In this document: positions 17,197 through 46,862 of the stretch, one piece after another
Position numbering within the stretch: position 1 is the first letter of the stretch
Layout: each line of letters opens with the position of its first letter
Assembly: GCA_029210695.1 (NCBI GenBank)
Contig: JARGFH010000005.1
Coordinates: forward strand, 1-46,862
Direction: 5' to 3'
Length of the DNA: 46,862 nt
Source of the DNA: Acidimicrobiia bacterium
GTDB lineage: Bacteria; Actinomycetota; Acidimicrobiia; Spongiisociales; JAHEDJ01
The notes under the pieces: model-generated
What the model was told of the DNA's origin: nothing
Database searches by the model: none
The model's input: only the letters and a program-made list of their open reading frames with translations
Made by a program: the position numbers and the translations under genes

Positions 17197-18312
17197 ATGA
17201 GTGCACGTACCGACCGCCACGAGCAGTGGCTCACAGAACTGACTGCCCTGCCGACGGTTGCCGGCCATGAGGACCGCGTGGTGGAGTGGATCGAGCGCTG
17301 GGCAGGGCGGCGCAATGATGTTCGGATGACGCGAGACGGCGGCGGCAATGTGATCTTGCGGTCCGGTATCCGCACCCGCAAGACGCCGGTCGTGTTGACC
17401 GCCCACATCGACCATCCCGGGTTCGTGGTCACTGCGGTCGACCGATCACGGCGCGTCGGCGTCGAGTTCCGGGGCGGTGTCCACGCCCCCTACTTCGAAG
17501 ATGCACGGGTCGACCTGTTCGACGCGGACGACCGGGTCCATCGCGGAACGGTGACCGGTTTCGATCACAAGACGTCCACCGGGTCCATCCGGCTGGATCG
17601 AAGGTCGGGCAACCTGGCGCCCGGGGACATTGGACGCTGGGCGTTGTCGTCGAGGTCTCTCGGGGTCCGCAAGGAGCGGTTGTATGCGCCTGCTTGCGAC
17701 GACCTGGCAGGCGTGGCCGCGGTCGTTTCCGCATTCGACACCCTGCGCAAGACCGCCCCGCAGGTGCGAGTGCTGCTCACCCGGGCAGAAGAAGTCGGGT
17801 TCATCGGGGCGATCGCGGCGTGCAAAGCGGGCACGATTCCGGAACAGGCCGACGTAATCGTCGTCGAGAACTCGCGGGCGTTCCCCAGATATCCGGTCGG
17901 GAACGGGCCGGTGGTCCGGGTCGGGGACGCCTCCACCGTCTTTGACCGTGAGCTGACGAACCAGCTGACCCGGCTCGTGCGGTCGTACGCGGAGCAGCAT
18001 GAAGGCTTCCGATGGCAGCGGAAGCTGATGGATGGTGGTTCCTGTGAGGCGACCGCCTTCGGCGCCTACGGCTACCAGGCGAGCTCGTTGAGTTTGCCGC
18101 TCGGCAACTATCACAACATGGTTGACATCGACGGCGTGCTCGCCGGCGGCCGGCCGGCCCGAGTCGACGCCGAGTACGTGTCGCTCGACGACTATCACGG
18201 GCTGGTTGATCTGCTGGTCGAAGTTGCCCCCCGCCTCGGAGAGGCCGGGGAGTCTGTGCTTCAAGAGCGCCTCGACGGCCGGTTCGAGGCAGAACGCGCC
18301 GTCCTCGGCTGA
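17197..18312 (+). CDS. M42-family aminopeptidase-like metallohydrolase
   Basis: This 371-residue protein resembles M42/FrvX (glutamyl aminopeptidase, endoglucanase M) enzymes. Metal-binding segments are visible in order: TAHIDHPGFV near residue 70, ACDDLAGVAA near 170, TRAEEVGFIGA near 195, VVENSRAF near 228 and NYHNMVDID near 305. A small beta-domain (residues about 85-165) is inserted in the catalytic domain, as in the family. The DHPG in place of the usual DEIG may shift metal binding or substrate range. The usual activity is trimming of short peptides in the cytosol by large oligomers. Confidence 0.85.
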   Translation: MSARTDRHEQWLTELTALPTVAGHEDRVVEWIERWAGRRNDVRMTRDGGGNVILRSGIRTRKTPVVLTAHIDHPGFVVTAVDRSRRVGVEFRGGVHAPYFEDARVDLFDADDRVHRGTVTGFDHKTSTGSIRLDRRSGNLAPGDIGRWALSSRSLGVRKERLYAPACDDLAGVAAVVSAFDTLRKTAPQVRVLLTRAEEVGFIGAIAACKAGTIPEQADVIVVENSRAFPRYPVGNGPVVRVGDASTVFDRELTNQLTRLVRSYAEQHEGFRWQRKLMDGGSCEATAFGAYGYQASSLSLPLGNYHNMVDIDGVLAGGRPARVDAEYVSLDDYHGLVDLLVEVAPRLGEAGESVLQERLDGRFEAERAVLG

Positions 18313-18316
18313 CAAC

Positions 18317-18433
18317 CTGGTTTCTCCGCAATACTGTGGTCGCTGGTGGTCCACCGCATTGCGCAGAAACCAGAGGGACTTTTCTCCGCAATACTGTGGT
18401 TGCTGGTGGTCCATTGCATTGCGGAGAAACCAG
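18317..18433 (+). repeat. Paired hairpin repeats upstream of ABC ATPase
   Basis: There are two about 55-nt hairpins. Copy 1 (18317-18373) has arms CTGGTTTCTCCGCAAT and ATTGCGCAGAAACCAG, with one mismatch. Copy 2 (18380-18433) has perfect 12-bp arms TTTCTCCGCAAT and ATTGCGGAGAAA. The loops share CTGTGGT(C/T)GCTGGTGGTCCA. The second copy ends about 1 nt before the ABC start codon. Confidence 0.9.
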
Positions 18434-18434
18434 G

Positions 18435-19529
18435 ATGCCTGCGATCGTGTTTGATCGGATCTCGTTGGACCGTGGGGGTGTGTTCGCGCTCAACGGTGTT
18501 TCCCTGGAGATCGAAGACGGTGAGCTGCTCACGGTGGTCGGACCTTCGGGGAGCGGGAAGACCGCCTTGCTCCGTATCATCGCCGGACTGGAGCAGCCCA
18601 CCGGCGGGCGATTGCTGTTCGACGGAACCGACATGATCGGGGTGGAACCTCTCAATCGTGACGTGGCGATGGTCTTCCAGGAGCATGCGCTGTACTCGCA
18701 CAAGACCGCGGAAGCCAACCTTGCCTTCCCCCTCGAGGTCCACCATGTCCACGAACCGGAACGGACGTCGCGGGTAGCGAAGATGGCGACGGCAATGCGC
18801 CTGGCGCGGATCCTCGACCGCCTGCCCAGGACCCTGTCGGTCGGCCAGCGGAACGCGGTGGCGACCGGACGGGCGCTGGTCAGGGACCCGGCCATCCTCT
18901 TGCTCGACGAGCCGCTCTCCAACTTCGACGCCCGGGGCCGTTTGCATGCCCGGGTCGAGATCCGGCAGCGGCACGATCAGTCCGGGGCGACAACGGTCTA
19001 CGCCACCAACGATCAGGCAGAGGCCATGGCCCTCGGCGATCGCGTCGTCGTGTTGAACCGCGGAATGGTGCAGCAGATCGGTCCACCGGAACTCATCTAC
19101 GGGGCGCCGGCCAACCTGTTCGTCGCCCGGTTTGTCGGGACACCACCGATGAACGCGATGACCGGCCTCTTCGAGGCCGCCTACCCCGACTTCCGGTGGA
19201 CTTCCGGCGACGACCGTCTCGTGATCCCCACCCGGTTGGTCGAGTCCCGCCCCCGACTGCGCGAGTTCACGGGACGCCGGGTAGTGATCGGGATACGCTC
19301 ACAGCACCTCCATCCGACGGTCGCCGCGCCTTCCGGCACGTGGCTGCGCGGCACCTGCTTGGGGATCGAGGACCACGGCAGCGACCGGTTCGCCTATATC
19401 GAACTCGGCAGCGGTCAAATGGTTGCGAGAATCGGTGAGCAGGTGCTTGGCATCGGGACCCCAACCGAACTGACGGTCGACTTCGAACACCTCCACTTCT
19501 TCGACCCTGAGACCGGGGCGGCGGTCTAG
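18435..19529 (+). CDS. Orphan sugar-type ABC transporter ATPase with altered H-loop
   Basis: This 364-residue protein resembles MalK/UgpC. The nucleotide-binding domain has Walker A GPSGSGKT (36-43), Q-loop MVFQEHALY, signature LSVGQ (134-138, usually LSGGQ), Walker B ILLLDEP, and SNFDA for the D-loop. The switch His of the usual THDQ is Asn192 (YATNDQ), a change expected to impair ATP hydrolysis. A C-terminal OB-type regulatory domain (residues about 240-364) is present. No permease or binding protein is nearby. Both flanks carry paired hairpin repeats, and the start codon follows one directly with no clear Shine-Dalgarno. It may work as a shared ATPase, a regulator, or be decaying. Confidence 0.88.
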   Translation: MPAIVFDRISLDRGGVFALNGVSLEIEDGELLTVVGPSGSGKTALLRIIAGLEQPTGGRLLFDGTDMIGVEPLNRDVAMVFQEHALYSHKTAEANLAFPLEVHHVHEPERTSRVAKMATAMRLARILDRLPRTLSVGQRNAVATGRALVRDPAILLLDEPLSNFDARGRLHARVEIRQRHDQSGATTVYATNDQAEAMALGDRVVVLNRGMVQQIGPPELIYGAPANLFVARFVGTPPMNAMTGLFEAAYPDFRWTSGDDRLVIPTRLVESRPRLREFTGRRVVIGIRSQHLHPTVAAPSGTWLRGTCLGIEDHGSDRFAYIELGSGQMVARIGEQVLGIGTPTELTVDFEHLHFFDPETGAAV

Positions 19530-19532
19530 ACC

Positions 19533-19650
19533 CAGTTTTCTGCGCAATGCTGTGGTCGCTGGTGGTCCATTGCATTGCGGAGAAACCAGAAGGATTTTTC
19601 TCGGCAATGCTGTGGCGCGTGGCAATACATTGCATTGCCGAGAAAACTGG
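19533..19650 (+). repeat. Paired hairpin repeats downstream of ABC ATPase
   Basis: Copy 3 (19533-19589) has arms CAGTTTTCTGCGCAATGC and GCATTGCGGAGAAACCAG with mismatches. Copy 4 (19596-19646) has a perfect 15-bp stem TTTTCTCGGCAATGC / GCATTGCCGAGAAAA. The pair C-G of copy 2 has become G-C in copy 4, a compensatory change. The pair begins 3 nt after the ABC stop. Confidence 0.9.
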
Positions 19651-19693
19651 GGAGTTGTGACTTTTGGCCCGCACAACTCGGCCGGCGTCGACC

Positions 19694-19723
19694 TACGCTG
19701 GAACGTAACTGTCAACAGGAGGA
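19694..19723 (+). promoter_or_regulatory. fumC promoter element and ribosome binding site
   Basis: A TACGCT hexamer (19694-19699) is followed by AGGAGGA (19717-19723), 6 nt before the GTG at 19730. This gene has a leader and a strong Shine-Dalgarno, unlike the leaderless neighbours. Confidence 0.5.
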
Positions 19724-19729
19724 ACGGGC

Positions 19730-21121
19730 GTGGAATATCGCACCGAACGTGACTCGATGGGCGAGGTCCAGGTACCGATCAACGCCCTCTACGGAGCTTC
19801 GACGCAACGAGCAGTAGACAACTTCCCGATCTCGGGCTTGACCGTTGGGCGGCGCCTGATCTGGGCATTCGGGCTGATGAAAGGGGCCGTTGCGGCCGTC
19901 TCAGGGCCGGACGGGCACGTCGACGTCGCCACCGCCAAGGCGATCGAGGCGGCGGCCGAACAGGTGATGTCGGGCGTGCTCGACGACCAGTTCCCGGTGG
20001 ACGTGTTCCAGACCGGTTCCGGCACCTCGACGAATACGAACGCCAACGAGGTCATCGCCACCAAAGCATCCGAGATCCTGGGCGGCGAGGCCGGATCCAA
20101 ACTGGTCCACCCGAACGACCATGTGAACTTCGGCCAGTCGTCGAACGATACGTTCCCGACGGCGATGCACCTCGCCGCCGTCGAGGCGCTTCGCACGGGT
20201 CTCCTGCCTTCCCTCGATCGGCTGGCCACCTCGCTCGAAGCCAAGGCCGTCGAGTTCGCCGAGGTAGTGAAGTCGGGCCGCACCCACCTGATGGATGCGG
20301 TGCCGGTCACCCTCGGCCAGGAGTTCTCCGGGTGGGCCGCCCAGATGCGCAAGGCGGCCGAGCGGGTCGAAAAGGTGCTGCCGGAACTCGCCGAACTGCC
20401 TCTCGGCGGGACGGCCGTCGGCACCGGCATCAACTGCCCGGAGGGATTCGCCGGCAAAGTGATCGCGGTTATGGCGGAGAAGACGGGTTTTCCGTTCGTC
20501 GAGGCCGCCAACCACTTCGAAGCACAAGCTGCCAAGGATGCCGTGGTCAATACCTCGGGCGTACTCAAGACGATCGCCCAGTCGCTGTTCAAGGTGGTCA
20601 ACGACCTGCGCTGGTTGTCTTCCGGTCCCGTGACCGGCATTGCGGAGATCAAGCTTCCGGCTTTGCAGCCCGGATCGTCGATCATGCCGGCCAAGGTCAA
20701 TCCGGTCATCCCGGAAGCGGCGATGATGGTCGCCGCCCAGGTGATCGGTAACGATGTGGCCATCACGTGGGGCGGCGCCAACGGCAACTTCGAATTGAAC
20801 GTGATGATGCCGGTGATGGCCCGCAACCTGCTCGAGTCGATCGATCTGCTGGCGGCGGTGACGGGTGTGCTGGCGGAGAAGTGCATCGACGGCATCGAAG
20901 CCGACGCAGCCCGCGCCCAGATGCTCCTCGAGAAGAACGTGATCGTGGTCACGGCCCTCAACCCCCATATCGGGTACGACAACGGCTCGGCGGCGGCCAA
21001 GGAAGCCTTCGCCACCGGCCGGACGGTCCGGGAGGTCGTGCTCGAGAAGGGCCTGATGTCTGAGGAGGACCTCGACGCAGCCCTCGATCTCAAGAAGATG
21101 ACGCAGGGCGGCGTCCACTGA
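19730..21121 (+). CDS. fumC: Fumarate hydratase, class II
   Basis: This 463-residue homotetrameric, Fe-S-independent TCA cycle enzyme interconverts fumarate and malate. Visible motifs are MGEVQVP near the N-terminus, FQTGSGTSTNTNANEV, HPNDHVNFGQSSNDTFPTAMH with the active-site His, SGRTHLMDAVP, and the superfamily signature GSSIMPAKVNPV near residue 320. The HIGYDNGSAAAKEA segment distinguishes it from aspartase. The length is normal. GTG start with a strong Shine-Dalgarno; a hairpin terminator follows. Confidence 0.96.
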   Translation: MEYRTERDSMGEVQVPINALYGASTQRAVDNFPISGLTVGRRLIWAFGLMKGAVAAVSGPDGHVDVATAKAIEAAAEQVMSGVLDDQFPVDVFQTGSGTSTNTNANEVIATKASEILGGEAGSKLVHPNDHVNFGQSSNDTFPTAMHLAAVEALRTGLLPSLDRLATSLEAKAVEFAEVVKSGRTHLMDAVPVTLGQEFSGWAAQMRKAAERVEKVLPELAELPLGGTAVGTGINCPEGFAGKVIAVMAEKTGFPFVEAANHFEAQAAKDAVVNTSGVLKTIAQSLFKVVNDLRWLSSGPVTGIAEIKLPALQPGSSIMPAKVNPVIPEAAMMVAAQVIGNDVAITWGGANGNFELNVMMPVMARNLLESIDLLAAVTGVLAEKCIDGIEADAARAQMLLEKNVIVVTALNPHIGYDNGSAAAKEAFATGRTVREVVLEKGLMSEEDLDAALDLKKMTQGGVH

Positions 21122-30365: not shown

Positions 30366-30830
30366 ATGCGTACTGAGTTGACCAAGACCATGCCGGTGCC
30401 GCTCAAGAAGGGGTTCGACTACCTCAACGACTTCAAGACGTGGCCGGACTGGTACGTCGGGATGACCGAAGTCCTCAACCCGGCGCACGCCCAATGGATC
30501 ATCCCCGGCGATCGCGTCGAGTTCGCCTACCGGCTCGTCGGTCGGCGCGTCGAGGGGGTTTCAACGCTCGACGACAAGATCGACTTCGATTTCGTCCGGT
30601 TCCACAGTGATGTCCCCGGCCTCCCGCGGGTCTACCACGAGTTCCACTACGGTCCTGCCGGCGACGCCGCCTTCATCCTGAAGGTCACGCTGGAGACCAA
30701 GGAAGACGAGCTAACCACCTTCTTTGGGAAGGTCGTCGACAAGATGATGCTGCCCCGGACACTCGAGCGTGATCTGCGGGGAAGCCTCGAAAACCTGGAA
30801 GAAATCTTCGTAGCGGGCCTGTACGAATAG
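30366..30830 (+). CDS. SRPBCC-fold protein
   Basis: This 154-residue soluble protein looks like a START/polyketide-cyclase (SRPBCC) member. The N-terminal strand and helices TKTMPVPLKKGFDYLNDFKTWPDWY are typical, then YRLVGRRVEGV strands and a long C-terminal helix (LERDLRGSLENLEEIF). These proteins bind hydrophobic ligands; ligand and role are unknown. AAGGGGGTGA precedes the ATG, so it has a leader. An A-B-A palindromic repeat block starts 8 nt after the stop. Confidence 0.75.
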   Translation: MRTELTKTMPVPLKKGFDYLNDFKTWPDWYVGMTEVLNPAHAQWIIPGDRVEFAYRLVGRRVEGVSTLDDKIDFDFVRFHSDVPGLPRVYHEFHYGPAGDAAFILKVTLETKEDELTTFFGKVVDKMMLPRTLERDLRGSLENLEEIFVAGLYE

Positions 30831-30838
30831 GGGGTTTT

Positions 30839-31039
30839 TCGGTCCCCCCGGAGGGGGGAAGGTACCGCCGCCGGAGGCGGGGGTAGGGGGGCTCCGGTGG
30901 TGAGTTCCTGTTCGCGCCCCCTCTGCCTCGAAGACTCGGCATCTCCCCCGCTCGAGCGGGGAAGAAACGCGGGTGGGTCGGTCCCCCCGGAGGGGGGAAG
31001 GTACCGCCGCCGGAGGCGGGGGTAGGGGGGCTCCGGTGG
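30839..31039 (+). repeat. A-B-A palindromic repeat block
   Basis: Two identical 62-nt class A copies (30839-30900 and 30978-31039, TCGGTCCCCCCGG...) flank one class B copy (30916-30975) in the opposite sense. Each class A unit has two hairpins, GGTCCCCCCGGAGGGGGG and CCGCCGCCGGAGGCGG. The class B unit has CTCCCCCGCTCGAGCGGGG. Confidence 0.92.
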
Positions 31040-31112
31040 GCCGGGTTCGTGCCGCACCGGTGTAACTCGCCAGGGGGCCCAACTAGCCGGGATCTCCTGC
31101 GAACATGGTGGC

Positions 31113-31940
31113 GTGCAATCGATTGACATGCTCTCGTCCACCGGTCTCCCTCGTCACGAGGCGGAACGGCTGGTCATGGCGGCCACCAAGCGTCCCCGCG
31201 CCGGGATCCTGGACGGCACGCCACTCACCCCCGATGAGACGGCCCGCTTCCGGGAACTCGCGGCGCGCCGCCGGTCCGGCGAACCGCTCCAGTATCTGGA
31301 GGGCACAGTCGAGTTCGGCCCGGTGGAGTTACTCGTCGACGAACGTGCGTTGATCCCGCGCCCCGAGACCGAGGCAGTCTGGGATGAGGCCCGTCGCATG
31401 TTGGGAGAGGCGGGTCGGGGAACGGTCATCGTCGATCTCTGCACCGGCAGCGGGGCGATGGCTCTGGCTATGAAGACGGTGTTCCCTGCCGCCCGGGTGT
31501 TCGCGACCGACCTCAGCGAGGAAGCGTTGTCCCTGGCTGGGGAGAACGCTTCCCGCCTCGGTCTCGACATTCAGTTCTTCCACGGCGACCTGTTCGACGC
31601 GTTGCCGCGCTCGATCTACGGGCGGATCGATCTGCTGTTGACCAATCCCCCTTACATCGAGGAAAGGGAATGGCCGACTCTGCCGGCCGAGGTGCGCGAC
31701 TTTGAGCCCCGGCAGGCGCTGGTGGCCGGACTCGAAGGCACGGAGATTCTGGAGCGGATTGCAGACGACGTCTACTGGTGGCTCGGGGTCGGTGGATGGC
31801 TGGTCACAGAAATCGGCGAGACCCAGGGCCAGCGCGCGGATGAGTTGTTCGGCCAATGGCTCGACACAGAAGTGCGCCCCGATCTCACCGGCCGCGATCG
31901 AATGCTGGTCGGCCGCAAAGGCGCCCGCTGCTGCGTCTAG
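31113..31940 (+). CDS. prmC: Release factor glutamine methyltransferase PrmC
   Basis: This 275-residue SAM-dependent enzyme methylates the Gln of the GGQ motif in class I release factors. It has an N-terminal helical domain with RRRSGEPLQYLEGTVEF, then the SAM-binding VIVDLCTGSGAMALA near residue 105, and the catalytic NPPY (Asn178-Tyr181). The motif ALIPRPETE near 80 is also typical. It is usually next to prfA and tsaC; here prfA is absent and tsaC is 11 kb away, separated by repeat-rich DNA. The GTG start has no Shine-Dalgarno; a weak GAACAT lies 6 nt upstream. Confidence 0.93.
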   Translation: MQSIDMLSSTGLPRHEAERLVMAATKRPRAGILDGTPLTPDETARFRELAARRRSGEPLQYLEGTVEFGPVELLVDERALIPRPETEAVWDEARRMLGEAGRGTVIVDLCTGSGAMALAMKTVFPAARVFATDLSEEALSLAGENASRLGLDIQFFHGDLFDALPRSIYGRIDLLLTNPPYIEEREWPTLPAEVRDFEPRQALVAGLEGTEILERIADDVYWWLGVGGWLVTEIGETQGQRADELFGQWLDTEVRPDLTGRDRMLVGRKGARCCV

Positions 31941-31955
31941 CGACGCTTGGCGGTG

Positions 31956-32466
31956 AGCCCCCCTACCCCCGCCTCCGGCGGCGGTACTTTCCCCCCTGCG
32001 GGGGGACCGATTCACCCGCGTTTCTCCGCTGCGTCAGCAGGGGAGTGACGGGTCTTCGCTCAACCCGCGTGGCAGAGGGGGCATGCACGTGAGCCCCCCT
32101 ACCTCCGCACAATCGCGAACTGCGACACCCTGCGGGGGGACCGACTGACACGCGTTTCTCCGCTGCGTCAGCATGGGAGTGACGGGTCTTCGCTCAACCG
32201 CCGTTTCTCCCCCGCTTGGGCGGGGGAGATGCCGAGTCTTCGAGGCAGAGGGGGCATTGGCGTACGCCTGGGATGCCGAGTCTTCGATCGAATTGGATTG
32301 ACCCGACCACCATCACACTCACGAAATCGACGGGTCAATCCATTTCGACAGGCAGAGGGGGCAGTGGGGTAGGCGGCAGCGCGGCGTGGCCCCCCTACCC
32401 CCGCCTGCCGGCGGCGGTACCTTCCCCCCTCCGGGGGGACCGACTCACCCGCGTTTCTCCCCCGCT
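31956..32466 (+). repeat. Array of alternating class A and class B repeats
   Basis: Copies in order are A 31956-32011, B (reverse, variant) 32017-32084, A 32091-32146, B 32150-32197, B 32203-32256, B with an inserted arm 32272-32366, A 32388-32446, and a truncated B 32447-32466. The last copy is cut off at the join with the DUF11 pseudogene. This region has no gene of its own. Confidence 0.88.
32288..32348 (+). repeat. Extra hairpin arm inside a class B repeat
   Basis: Arms TCGAATTGGATTGACCCG and CGGGTCAATCCATTTCGA (17 of 18 pairs) enclose a 25-nt loop. The insert sits between CTTCGA and CAGGCAGAGGGG of a class B copy. It occupies the same place as the arm at 37545-37598. Confidence 0.85.
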
Positions 32467-37403: not shown

Positions 37404-37690
37404 CGCGAGGCGCGGGTTGCTAGTCGCGGGTCGCGGGTCGCGAGTTGCCCCCTCCGCCTCGTGGACTCGGCACCTCCCCCGCTTTCAGCGGGGGAGGAAC
37501 GCGGTGGGGGGAGGAACGCGAGAGGCGCTTGCCCCCTCTGCTGGTCGACATGAATAGACCTGCGTTGGTCCTTCGGTGGTTGGGTCTATTCACGTCGATC
37601 GTGGACTCGGCACCTCCCCCGCGTCGCGGGATGCCCCCTCTGCCTCGCAGACTCGGCATCTCCCCCGTCTTCGCCGGGGGAGAAACGCGA
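37404..37690 (+). repeat. Heptamer tract and class B/C repeats
   Basis: Right after the stop come GCGGGTC units (37421-37445). Then come a C/B hybrid (37447-37507) with stem CCTCCCCCGC-TTTCA-GCGGGGGAGG, a class B copy with an inserted arm (37531-37618), and a class B copy with stem CTCCCCCG...CGGGGGAG (37633-37690). No gene lies in 37402-37725. Confidence 0.85.
37545..37598 (+). repeat. Extra hairpin arm inside a class B repeat
   Basis: Arms TCGACATGAATAGACC and GGTCTATTCACGTCGA (15 of 16 pairs) with a 22-nt loop. Relative to the arm at 32288-32348 several pairs have changed on both sides. Confidence 0.85.
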
Positions 37691-37725
37691 AAGAGGGGGA
37701 GGAACGCGGTGGGTGGTCGTGCCGG

Positions 37726-41737: not shown

Positions 41738-42474
41738 TCATGCCCCCCTAGCTCCCGACGTGAGGACGGTCGTGCCCCCTCCGCTTTCGCCTGCGGCGAA
41801 ACCACCTCCCCCGCCTTCAGCGGGGGAGGAGCGCTTTGGCCCTCTCGGCCCCCATGGGGGAGAAAAGCGTTGAGCCTTTCTGCTGGGAGTTCTCGGTCCT
41901 CCCCGGCAGTCGCGCAGTCGCCTTGCGTGTTGTGTTCTCCCCTCGCCGCTGGGCGGGGGTAGTCCCGGAGCGAAGCGGAGGGGAGGGGGGTCGGGTGACC
42001 GGCAGCGGGGAGGAACGCGGTTTGGCCACCTCGGCCTCGTGCCGTGGGGGAGAACCGCGTGGAGCCTGTCCCCTTCGAGGGCTCTCCTGCGCCGCGCTGG
42101 TCGGTCGAGGTAGCAGGAGGCGGCGGCCGGATCGCTGAGTACGTGGTTGATGACGCGCAGTGTTCCCTCGATGTTGTCGAGTACGTACCGTTCGGTGAAA
42201 TGCAGAACCGTCCAGCCTCGCGTCCGGAACCACTCGTCCCGGCGCTCCGCGTAGGCGTGGTCTCTGTACTCGTGGCTGCTGCCGTCCACCTCGATGATCA
42301 GCCTCTTCGAGAGGCAAGCGAAGTCGATGATGTAGGGGCCGGTCGGTTCCTGACGCGAAAGCGCACGGCGAGTTGGCCGCCCCGGACCTGCTGCCACAGG
42401 TATATCTCCGCCCAGGTCGATTCGCGTCGCATGGTGCGGGCGTATGCCTTTTGTCGTTTTGTGCGTCTCGCCAT
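41738..42474 (-). pseudogene. Frameshifted DUF559 (Vsr-like) endonuclease
   Basis: The ATG at 42474 opens MARRTKRQKAYARTMRRESTW..., the N-terminal helix of DUF559. At GQLAVRF-R the frame is lost: one base is missing near 42352-42357. The next frame continues RQEPTGPYIIDFACLSKRLIIEVDGSSHEY...WFRTRGWTVLHFTERYVLDNIEGTL, with the nuclease Asp, EVDG and His all present. The domain ends near 42130. The frame runs on through class C and D repeats to a stop at 41738, giving a Pro/Arg-rich tail. DUF559 proteins belong to the PD-(D/E)XK/Vsr nuclease superfamily and lack a fixed role. Confidence 0.82.
41773..42000 (+). repeat. Class C and class D repeats 3' of DUF559 gene
   Basis: Class C 41773-41832 has hairpins TTTCGCCTGCGGCGAAA and CCTCCCCCGC-CTTCA-GCGGGGGAGG. 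Class D 41932-41990 (TTCTCCCCTCGCCG...GTCCCGGAG) follows. They have the same orientation as the copies at 42530-42681. Confidence 0.85.
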
Positions 42475-42529
42475 GTCGGATTGATATCGCACAGCTGGGA
42501 CGGAAACTCGCGAGCGCGGGTCTGGTTGG

Positions 42530-42800
42530 CCCCCTCCGCCTTCGCCTTCGGCGAAACCACCTCCCCCGCTTTCAGCGGGGGAGGAACGCGTTTGGGCTTG
42601 TTGTCTGGGGTGGAACGGTGTCGCGTTCTCCCCTCGCCGTTGGGCGGGGGGAGTCCCGGAGTGAAGCGGAGGGGTGAGGGGCTGCTGTGTGGGGTTGCTG
42701 CCCCCCTCCGCTTTCGCCTTCGGCGAAACCACCTCCCCCGCTTTCAGCGGTGGAGGAACGACGTGATTTGCAGCGGTGGAGGAACGCGGTGAATGTCGCG
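42530..42800 (+). repeat. Class C-D-C repeat block 5' of DUF559 gene
   Basis: Class C 42530-42590 (TTCGCCTTCGGCGAA and CCTCCCCCGC-TTTCA-GCGGGGGAGG), class D 42624-42681, class C 42701-42760, then fragments of GGAGGAACGCGGT. With the block at 41773-42000 they bracket the nuclease gene. Confidence 0.87.
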
Positions 42801-42903: not shown

Positions 42904-43115
42904 TGGTGGCAATGAAACCACTTGGGGTGGTTTGCGGGCTGGGAGCGATGATCCCTGAACCAATGATCGGTCACTGAGTTCAGGGGGAGCGTGAGGTGAC
43001 CGATCCGACCCGATCGGTGCGGGCGTGCTGCAGATCACGGCACGACGGGAGGGCCGCCCGGGTCGAGACGAAGGCGCTGGCGCTCAGAGATGAGCACAGC
43101 GCCTTCGCGCGTTTT
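42904..43115 (+). ncRNA. Candidate structured RNA with own terminator
   Basis: Four hairpins occur in 200 nt: H0 AAACCAC-TTGGG-GTGGTTT (42915-42933), H1 CCCTGAAC/GTTCAGGG (42953-42985), H2 ACCGATC/GATCGGT (42999-43018), and H3 CGAAGGCGCT/AGCGCCTTCG (43069-43107). H3 is followed by CGCGTTTTCC. The H1 loop GATCGGTCAC (42965-42974) is perfectly complementary to GTGACCGATC (42996-43005), which competes with H2 and would form a pseudoknot with H1. No family is recognised. A short frame from GTG 42996 to 43187 overlaps, with poor codon usage. Confidence 0.4.
43069..43115 (+). terminator. Hairpin with T-rich tail upstream of tsaC
   Basis: The 10-bp perfect outer stem CGAAGGCGCT/AGCGCCTTCG encloses a smaller GCTCA-GAGA-TGAGC stem and is followed by TTTT at 43112. 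It lies upstream of the tsaC promoter, so it ends a separate transcript. Confidence 0.55.
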
Positions 43116-43183: not shown

Positions 43184-43762
43184 ATGACGACGATCGACGC
43201 GGCTGTTGCCGCCATTCACCGTGGGCTCATCGTGGGTGTGCCCACCGACACCGTATACGGCCTGGCGGTTGATCCGCTCAACACGGAGGCCGTGGCGGCG
43301 CTCTACGAGTTGAAGGGCAGACCCGACGAGAAGGCTATTCCCGTTCTGGTGGCGACCGTCGCCCAGGCACTCGAGATCGTCGACATCCCGCCTGAGATCG
43401 AAGATATGGCCTTGCGCCATTGGCCGGGACCGTTGACCTTGGTGCTGCGCCGGCACGTTGAACTGCCGGATTGGGTGGGGGAGCGCGAGCGGGGAACCGT
43501 CGCCGTGCGGATCCCGGATCATCCCGTCGCTCTTGACTTTCTCAGTGCGGCCGGGCCTTTGGCGGTGACATCGGCCAATCGTAGTGGCAACCCTCCAGCT
43601 CAAGATGAGGTTGAGGCTCGGGAGCTGCTGGGCAGTGGTGTGGCGGTCTACCTGGAGGGGAGAAGCCCAGGCGGGGAACCCAGCACCGTTGTGGACATGA
43701 CCACCAATCCGCCCCGACTGGTGCGTGAAGGACCGGTGACGTTCGGGGACTTGCTCGGCTAG
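43184..43762 (+). CDS. tsaC: L-threonylcarbamoyladenylate synthase (Sua5/YrdC/TsaC)
   Basis: This 192-residue protein catalyses the first step of the t6A37 tRNA modification, making threonylcarbamoyl-AMP from Thr, bicarbonate and ATP. The YrdC motifs are clear: GLIVGVPTDTVYGLAVDP near residue 15, ELKGRPDEKAIPVLV, HWPGPLTLVL, VAVRIPDHPVA, and PLAVTSANRSGNPPA. It has only the YrdC domain, not the Sua5 C-terminal domain. The leaderless ATG is preferred over an in-frame GTG at 43151. It is convergent with galE. Confidence 0.94.
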   Translation: MTTIDAAVAAIHRGLIVGVPTDTVYGLAVDPLNTEAVAALYELKGRPDEKAIPVLVATVAQALEIVDIPPEIEDMALRHWPGPLTLVLRRHVELPDWVGERERGTVAVRIPDHPVALDFLSAAGPLAVTSANRSGNPPAQDEVEARELLGSGVAVYLEGRSPGGEPSTVVDMTTNPPRLVREGPVTFGDLLG

Positions 43763-44851: not shown

Positions 44852-44955
44852 GCCCCCTCTGCCTCGAAGACTCGGCATCTCCCCCGCGGAGCGGGGGAGA
44901 AACGCGGTGGGTCGAGGGCTCGGTGTCTCCGGCGCGGTCGCGGGGGAGAAAACGC
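44852..44955 (+). repeat. Class B palindromic repeats between galE and glyA
   Basis: GCCCCCTCTGCCTCG...GGCATCTCCCCC-GCGGAGC-GGGGGAGAAACGCGGTG (44852-44909), followed by a second partial copy. It lies between two divergent genes and thus in or near their promoters. Confidence 0.82.
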
Positions 44956-45101: not shown

Positions 45102-46376
45102 ATGATCGATTCTCGCAACATCGAACACGTCGACCCGGCCATGGCCGATCTCATCCGGCGGGACCTCGACCGGCAGAACACCAGCATTCATCTGATCGCT
45201 TCTGAGAACTTCGCTTCGACTGCAGTGATGCAGGCGACCGGGTCGGTGTTCACCAACAAGTACGCAGAGGGCTATCCCGGACGGCGGTACTACGAGGGTT
45301 GCCAGATCGTCGACGAGATGGAGCGCCTGGCCCAGACGCGGGTGCTCGAACTGCTCGGCGGTGTGCACGCCAACGTCCAGCCTCATTCGGGTGCGCAGGC
45401 CAACATGGCCGTCTACTTCAGCCTGCTCGACCTCGGCGACACCGTGCTGGGAATGCGCCTCGACCAGGGCGGACACCTCACCCACGGCTCGCCCGTCAAC
45501 TTCTCCGGCCGCTACTACAACTTCGTTGCCTACGGAGTCGACCCCGTCACCGAGCGCATCGACATGGACGAGGTCCGCAAACTCGCCCACGAGCACCGGC
45601 CGAAGATCCTGCTGGCCGGATACTCGGCCTATCCCCGCCACCTCGAGTACGAGCGGTTCCGTGAGATCGCCGACGAAATCGGAGCGGTTTTCATGGTCGA
45701 CGCCGCCCACTACATCGGGTTGGTAGCCGGCAAGGCGTTCCCGAATCCGATCGAGCACGCCGACGTCGTCACCTTCACCACCCACAAGGCACTGCGCGGT
45801 GCTCGCGGTGGAGCAATCATCACCAACAACGAGGAGATGGGCCTGGAGATCCAGAAGGGGCTGTTCCCCAACGCCCAGGGGGGATCGCTGTATAACCAGA
45901 TCGCCGGCAAGGCCGTGTGTTTCCACGAAGCCGCCCAGCCGGCGTTCCAGGAGTATGCCCACCAGGTGATAGCCAACGCGGCGGCCCTGGCGGCCCGGTT
46001 CATGGAGAACGGCCTCCGTCTCGTCTCGGACGGCACCGACAACCACATGATGCTGATCGATCTCCGCTCCGTCGACGAGGAACTGACCGGCAAGGACGCC
46101 GCCAAGATGCTCGACCGCATCGGCCTCACCCTCAACTTCAACACGATTCCCTTCGACCCCCGGCCGCCGTTCCGGGCCTCGGGAGTGCGAATCGGAACAC
46201 CGTCGGTGACCACGCAGGGTATGAAGGAAGTCGAGATGGTCCAGGTGGCCGACCTCATCACCGAAGCCTTGCGCAACCACGGAGAAGAGCGGGTTCTGGC
46301 CGCCACCGAGTCGCAAATCCGCCAGTTGGCGAAGCAGTTCCCTCCGTATCCGGAGGGGTTCGTCGGGCATGTGTGA
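45102..46376 (+). CDS. glyA: Serine hydroxymethyltransferase
   Basis: This 424-residue PLP enzyme converts serine and tetrahydrofolate to glycine and methylene-THF. It has LIASENFAS near residue 31, TNKYAEGYPGRRYYEGC, the Gly-rich HSGAQANMAV, DAAHYIGLVAG, and the PLP Lys229 in VTFTTHKALRGARGG. The C-terminal FRASGVRIGTPSVTTQGM is typical. I choose the ATG at 45102, with GAAGGA 4 nt upstream, because family N-termini begin about 20 residues before DRQ; a TTG at 45057 would add 15 residues. Heptamer and class B repeats follow the stop. Confidence 0.96.
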   Translation: MIDSRNIEHVDPAMADLIRRDLDRQNTSIHLIASENFASTAVMQATGSVFTNKYAEGYPGRRYYEGCQIVDEMERLAQTRVLELLGGVHANVQPHSGAQANMAVYFSLLDLGDTVLGMRLDQGGHLTHGSPVNFSGRYYNFVAYGVDPVTERIDMDEVRKLAHEHRPKILLAGYSAYPRHLEYERFREIADEIGAVFMVDAAHYIGLVAGKAFPNPIEHADVVTFTTHKALRGARGGAIITNNEEMGLEIQKGLFPNAQGGSLYNQIAGKAVCFHEAAQPAFQEYAHQVIANAAALAARFMENGLRLVSDGTDNHMMLIDLRSVDEELTGKDAAKMLDRIGLTLNFNTIPFDPRPPFRASGVRIGTPSVTTQGMKEVEMVQVADLITEALRNHGEERVLAATESQIRQLAKQFPPYPEGFVGHV

Positions 46377-46620
46377 GGCGCGAGTCGCGGGTCGCGGGTC
46401 GCGGGTCGCGGGTCGCCCCCTCTGCCTCGCAGACTCGGCATCTCCCCCACGTGCCGTGGGGGAGAAACGCGGTGGGGTGTGCCGGTGGGGGAGAACCCTG
46501 GGTGCGCGGCGGGGAGGAACGCGGTGGTGGGCCGTGGGGGAGGAAGTGTGCGATGCGCGGCGGGGAGCAAACAGATTGCGTTCTCCCCTCGCCGGAGGTG
46601 GGGGAGGGGGGCTTCTGGAC
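46377..46620 (+). repeat. Heptamer tract, class B and class D repeats after glyA
   Basis: The GCGGGTC heptamer is repeated about five times (46384-46415). It is followed by a class B copy (46415-46477, stem CTCCCCCAC-GTGCC-GTGGGGGAG), partial B copies, and a class D fragment (46580-46620). No gene is seen. Confidence 0.85.
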
Positions 46621-46687
46621 CAGCGACTCGCGACCAGCAACTCGCGACCCTCAAGGAATACCTCGCTCATTGCAGGGGTTGGTTCGA

Positions 46688-46705
46688 TTGTGAAGGGATT
46701 CACAA
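46688..46705 (+). promoter_or_regulatory. Perfect inverted repeat, operator-like
   Basis: TTGTGAA-GGGA-TTCACAA, two perfect 7-nt arms with a 4-nt spacer, lies 20 nt before a possible GTG start at 46725. It looks like a dimeric repressor site for a gene continuing beyond the window. Confidence 0.4.
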
Positions 46706-46724
46706 GTTCGTCAAGGGAACGACT

Positions 46725-46862
46725 GTGATAGAGCAGACCGCGGTTGATGCTTCCCATCGTGCGATGTACGAAGGCGGCCCCCCTACCTCCGCCTTTGCTT
46801 TGCTTCGGCGCAGGGACCTTCCCCCCTGCGGGGGGACCGAGGTCCGGGTGGCTCTCTCTCGG
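46725..46862 (+). other. Possible start of a truncated gene entering a class A repeat
   Basis: A frame opens at GTG 46725 (MIEQTAVDASHRAMYEGG) and stays open to the window end. From about 46777 it runs through a class A repeat (GCCCCCCTACC...GGGGGGACCGAG). Only the first 18 residues could be original. There is no recognisable family. Confidence 0.2.

Follow-up and report, generated by a model that had tools for sequence, protein, structure and literature searches.

The two pairs of short palindromes that frame an ABC ATPase gene in the window (the whole 46,862-nt stretch of contig JARGFH010000005.1 that was analysed) are probably REP-like gene-end elements of a genus-specific family, which a putative factor would read sequence-specifically and which would multiply by local copying. 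This reading comes from comparing the source draft genome (G000; 3.9 Mb) with the other four genomes of the genus (G001–G004); the genomes of the genus are draft MAGs, and G004 is 56%-complete. The role of REP-like palindromes for their hosts is an old question, usually confounded by mobility. Here no transposase was detectable, the elements stand at the same gene ends in different species, and their sequence but not their base pairing is constrained, so that function may be separable from mobility. The locus also shows that local copying can make a gene look "framed", and that frames mark segments missing in sister species.

The four palindromes, each 49 bp long and listed without strand, form two head-to-tail twins with 11-nt spacers, one twin on each side of the ABC gene, and are numbered here 1 to 4 from left to right. 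The left twin follows an M42-family peptidase gene (17197..18312, + strand; Pfam PF05343, E 1.7e-20), the 3' end of which carries it. It consists of hairpin 1 (18321..18369), lying 8 nt past the peptidase stop codon and having one stem mismatch, at positions 6–7, of the spacer CCAGAGGGACT (18370..18380), and of hairpin 2 (18381..18429). Then follows the gene of a UgpC/MalK-type ABC ATPase (18435..19529, + strand; PF00005, E 2.1e-30). The right twin is composed of hairpin 3 (19537..19585), the spacer CCAGAAGGATT (19586..19596), identical to the left spacer at 8 of 11 positions, and hairpin 4 (19597..19645). Two hairpins upstream and two downstream of the gene had been described in the original prediction and are present at these coordinates; they are close to the gene, at distances of 5 nt before the start and 7 nt after the stop. 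The perfect arms ascribed to hairpins 2 and 4 were found over the outer 12 bp, and hairpins 1 and 3 are mismatched. The observation was confirmed in part, the exception being the compensatory change discussed below. RNA folding of all four hairpins was far better than that of shuffled sequences (z −4.9 to −7.9). The 3' arm of hairpin 2 contains GGAG at 18423–18426, which may serve as a Shine-Dalgarno sequence of the ABC gene, whose start codon is 8 nt downstream; the corresponding site in G003, a sister species, is occupied by an ordinary AGGAG.

The hairpins were not built as a pair round one gene but are members of a dispersed family. Its unit is a dyad-symmetric, imperfect palindrome of 49/50 bp (range 47–50 bp), TTCTNNGCAAT…ATTGCNNAGAA, with the half-site TTCTNNGCAATRC, present singly or as a head-to-tail twin. 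The genome-wide search that the original prediction had called for was made with the strict pattern TTCTNNGCAAT-N25-28-ATTGCNNAGAA; it returned 87 hairpins in G000, where such structures are therefore not unusual, and 58, 95, 102, and 17 in G001, G002, G003, and G004, respectively. The reversed pattern, used as a control, had no match in the genus genomes. The strict pattern had none in 145 other genomes of the class, among which no other genus of the same family is represented, and on this set the palindrome family appears genus-specific. A literature search for palindromic repeats of Acidimicrobiia found no paper. Fifty G000 elements were read in context and comprised 27 twins and 23 singles. 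The twin spacer was 11 nt long in all 27 G000 twins and, over four genomes, in 55 of 56, the remaining one being 10 nt. The copies within a twin are direct repeats: 17.0 of 20 inner positions were identical when the same arms were compared, vs. 10.3 by either pairing scheme. For this reason, the twin sequences do not support a long-hairpin fold with the spacer as the loop, although it was the MFE structure in 36 of 56 twins. An outer stem formed by the element flanks was strong in L048, L050, and L055 but unconvincing overall (p 0.07; twins 0.03). The Rfam covariance-model search of the hairpins gave no match, even at E 5, which ruled out a known RNA family.

Placement was determined from gene calls made with a simple purpose-made gene finder. 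Of the 50 G000 elements, 29 were located between codirectional, 15 between convergent, and four between divergent genes; over four genomes, the corresponding numbers were 64, 36, and 13. The median distance from an element to the stop codon in G000 was 7 nt (at most 20 nt in 52 of 59 cases, most commonly 2 nt), and that to the next start was 42 nt. The element was closer to the stop than to the next start in 23 of 29 codirectional cases (p 0.002), a proximity that may reflect compact intergenic regions. Stop-codon placement was the same in G001 and G003. Element orientation relative to the gene was unbiased (19 same, 16 opposite). Twenty genes sampled beside elements were functionally unrelated (leucyl-tRNA synthetase and arginine deiminase, for example), and the idea of a regulon was rejected. 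Since the family sits a median of 7 nt past stop codons, the left twin belongs by its position to the end of the M42 peptidase gene and the right one to that of the ABC gene; the left twin is next to the ABC start because the intergenic region is short. The "frame" of the ABC gene is thus two successive gene-end elements and no mobile cassette.

Hairpins 2 and 4 had been thought to keep their pairing through a compensatory change. This is not covariation, as hairpins 1 and 3 are mismatched at those very positions. In pattern-sampled sets, the two arms vary independently at positions 6–7, with 15 matched vs. 17.4 expected in G001, 18 vs. 19.9 in G002 and G003 together, and 7 vs. 7.7 on G000 contigs C1–C5. 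Anti-covariation of the outer arms was also considered and discarded: it was partly a sampling effect, and less biased sets show independence. On the gene-sense strand, 105 G·U and 106 A·C combinations were counted; selection for RNA pairing should favour G·U, and the equality gives no sign of it. Position 15 was mismatched in 37 of 44 codirectional G000 hairpins, and a check of the twins for optimisation of either fold found none. Stem positions of orthologs had undergone three double changes (two of them in outer arms) and about 70 single ones. Among 39 orthologous G000/G001 hairpins, 1.5% of arm positions 2–12 were changed, a value that comes partly from hit selection because the half-site was used in detection. 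The inner, loop, and spacer values are unaffected by this selection: 8.4% of positions 13–19 and 6.2% of the loop were changed, vs. 35.5% in the spacers and 33% in the adjoining 10 nt. The spacer keeps a nearly constant length while its sequence drifts. It is the sequence, not the pairing, that is conserved between sister species.

These data bear most directly on the strongest rival explanation, an RNA-level gene-end element in which hairpin formation itself is selected, i.e., a bidirectional terminator lacking a U-tract, a 3' stabiliser, or a translation brake of the REP type. We consider it a real though tentative possibility. It accords with the location of elements just past stop codons and between convergent genes and with their strong folds; stable RNA hairpins are certainly possible. 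According to work cited in PMC12306157, REPs at most 15 nt from a stop codon stall ribosomes, and clustered hairpins near stop codons terminate transcription without a U-tract (PMC8355165). A search of 18200–19800 for U-tract terminators, however, found 0 sites, and the independence of the arms, the lack of preference for G·U over A·C, and the absence of orientation bias all speak against selected RNA structure. Moreover, a full terminator at the left twin, 5 nt ahead of the ABC start, would shut the gene off if no separate promoter served it. Insulation of the ABC gene by RNA hairpins, the second reading of the original prediction, may hold, but the base pairing bears no sign of selection.

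Many element positions are old. Of 17 elements in G003, at least 10 are at junctions also occupied in G000, as are several of the 11 in G002, although the nucleotide identity of sampled genes between G000 and G002/G003 is only 76% (peptidase) to 82% (fumarase). Of four G001 sites located in G000 through their flanks alone, three had kept the element and one had lost it. Searching G001 for the flanks in the L034/L048 regions gave no match and hence no information. At four of 31 orthologous sites, a twin in one genome corresponds to a single in the other, the difference being one whole unit, and species differed in the presence or absence of elements. Inner-part similarity at orthologous G000/G002–G003 sites was weak (mean rank 0.37). 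Among element neighbours within 4 kb, 18 of 19 pairs were direct, and their similarity exceeded that of other pairs (p<0.001 in G000 and G001); nearby elements are generally local direct copies. The window also contains other G+C-rich intergenic repeat families (30814–32465, 37407–37695, 41772–42760, 44852–44900, and 46375–46862) unrelated to the hairpins. A block resembling them replaces a hairpin element in G000 (L042 3954–4395) as compared to G001 (L103).

Local copying, differences in presence between species, twin–single exchange, and a spacer of fixed length, as in head-to-tail dimers, would also be expected of a selfish REP- or MITE-type element spread by a transposase and having little or no host function. 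We hold this to be unlikely. A profile search for RAYT proteins (Y1_Tnp, PF01797) had no match at E<=1 in the five genus genomes, draft MAGs in which such a protein could be missed, while E. coli and other controls were found; mobilisation by RAYT was accordingly rejected. Unlike decaying insertions, orthologous copies are conserved far above their flanks and spacers, and different genomes of the genus have elements at the same junctions.

The history of the ABC locus was reconstructed from its neighbours. G003 has the peptidase, the ABC gene, a twin, and the fumarase in this order, with no left element. The peptidase and ABC genes are likewise adjacent without a left element in G004, whose contig stops short of the right side. 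G002 has the peptidase, one hairpin, and the fumarase, and the ABC gene is absent. The peptidase orthologs of G002, G003, and G004 have 82% amino acid identity. The right neighbour (19730..21121, + strand), which we take to be a fumarase from sequence inspection, not from a family search, is conserved, with a homolog at the junction in G002 and G003 (82% nucleotide identity to G000); both species also have an element there, with the same right-hand flank as hairpin 4. Peptidase identity is 90.7% between G002 and G003, vs. 84.9% and 86.9% to G004 and 76% to G000. G002 is therefore sister to G003, and it follows that the ABC gene was present before its left hairpins and disappeared from G002. 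The left twin is a gain of the G000 lineage; its two hairpins, like its spacer, are similar to the right twin's first unit, and the inner similarity of hairpin 3 to the left twin is 0.92, within the top 1.3% of pairs; the left twin is likely a local copy of hairpin 3.

A second framed segment was found in G001, where two near-identical elements (L105 8946–10054) enclose 1,009 bp with a putative regulator and a membrane protein. G000 has one element at the corresponding site (L039 4948–4997), lacks the segment, and has the outer flanks joined to the base. A further short segment with twins on both sides is present in G003 (L228 3986–5161) and G001 (L115 6034–7209), and its G000 counterpart (L046/L043) has two twins at contig ends. 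The simplest account of the losses of the ABC gene in G002 and of the L105 segment in G000 is deletion between direct repeats; dedicated recombination may also have produced them. A mobile cassette as the origin of the ABC gene is contradicted by G003, with the same neighbours, and by G004, with the same upstream neighbour, both lacking the left twin. Of the cassette idea, what survives is that nearby elements are direct repeats and that framed segments can be missing with exactly one element left; arrival of the gene by this route does not. The two observations named beforehand as telling against a cassette, ordinary intergenic repeats and synteny of the ABC gene in relatives, were largely made, and the interpretation in the original prediction is partly supported.

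A bolder variant, in which a conserved, genus-specific REP-like site, read by a putative protein, would both serve the gene end and be the basis of an integrase-free, cassette-like plasticity system, with gene-plus-element segments lost and gained by recombination, seems quite improbable to us. Similarly improbable is a true cassette system in which a gene and its 3' element are exchanged by recombination at the elements, as at integron attC: the location after stop codons, the exact absence of the L105 segment, and the single element left in G002 fit it, but no integron integrase (TIGR02249) exceeded the family cut-off in any of the five genomes, which gave weak tyrosine-recombinase similarity only and led us to reject integrase involvement, the attC core GTTRRRY was absent by inspection, elements are also found where housekeeping genes converge, the left element is younger than the ABC gene, and ordinary deletion between 50-bp direct repeats accounts for the losses.

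The explanation that we prefer, REP-like gene-end elements read by a factor, would work as follows. A putative factor would recognise the sequence of the unit, as double strand or as hairpin, and selection would act on this sequence, not on RNA pairing; recognition is suggested by constraint without pairing. A REP-like role at gene ends, in 3'-end formation, termination, or DNA topology, is suggested by element position. A new unit would arise as a copy of a nearby one, placed either alongside it, giving a twin, or beyond the neighbouring gene. Copying past the neighbouring gene would have produced the framed ABC gene, and direct-repeat recombination could then delete such a gene.

The framed gene itself encodes an unusual protein. 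Asn192 in the H-loop, in place of the switch His, and the LSVGQ signature, both reported earlier, were seen in the sequence. The protein resembles UgpC/MalK ABC ATPases (NF008653, NF008233) over its full length, including the ABC and most of the TOBE/OB domains, but differs in the Asn and the altered signature and remains below family cut-offs: its best NCBIfam model, NF008653, scored 319 bits vs. a cut-off of 432, and the general ABC_tran cut-off was passed. Orthologs in G003 and G004 (68–69%) likewise have the Asn and altered signatures, and the nearest named genomes with orthologs are the MAGs JAHEDJ010000004.1 and JAUVQS010000078.1, the latter labelled Acidimicrobiia. Further MalK-like ATPases in which Asn replaces the H-loop His are encoded in L072, L073, L074, L078, L141, and L148; signatures of this type are LSVGQ, LSQGG, LSQGR, and LSAGx. 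The conservation of these proteins extends over the genus and to some distant relatives, and, going by these residues, they are possibly a catalytically altered subfamily. Elsewhere in the window, a c-di-GMP-II-GAG riboswitch was detected at 42933–43014 (41.8 bits, just over the Rfam gathering score), with the downstream gene starting at 43184.

The integron attC site is an imperfect palindrome directly past a stop codon, and the elements share with it this form and place as well as gene-plus-element units wholly missing in sister species; they differ in being dispersed among housekeeping genes in all orientations, without the integrase or the attC core. Tandem hairpin clusters and terminators lacking a U-tract (PMC8355165) are similar in that, in a genome of high GC content, a single hairpin or a pair lies within 20 nt of the stop codon, but those clusters are defined by structure, whereas here the sequence is constrained and the pairing is not. 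The closest likeness in form and position is to REPs of the GTAG and CGTC families, which are usually less than 20 bp from ORF 3' ends and some of which are confined to one genus (PMC3733652). In both cases, the imperfect palindromes are short, number about a hundred, and stand singly or as dimers between genes that are codirectional or convergent, near ORF 3' ends (PMC3733652). The element flanks contained no GTAG or CGTC tag and no conserved tetranucleotide, only weak G and T at −2 and −1. We call the elements REP-like and untagged because position and form fit, while the tag and transposase were sought and not found. They are further distinguished from REPs by a unit of 49/50 bp, vs. 20–40 bp, and by twins that are head-to-tail wherever orientation could be assigned, with an 11-bp spacer of free sequence, vs. 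dimer spacers of mostly 20–100 bp. Finally, they differ from REPs in that both position and sequence constraint are conserved over genus-level divergence.
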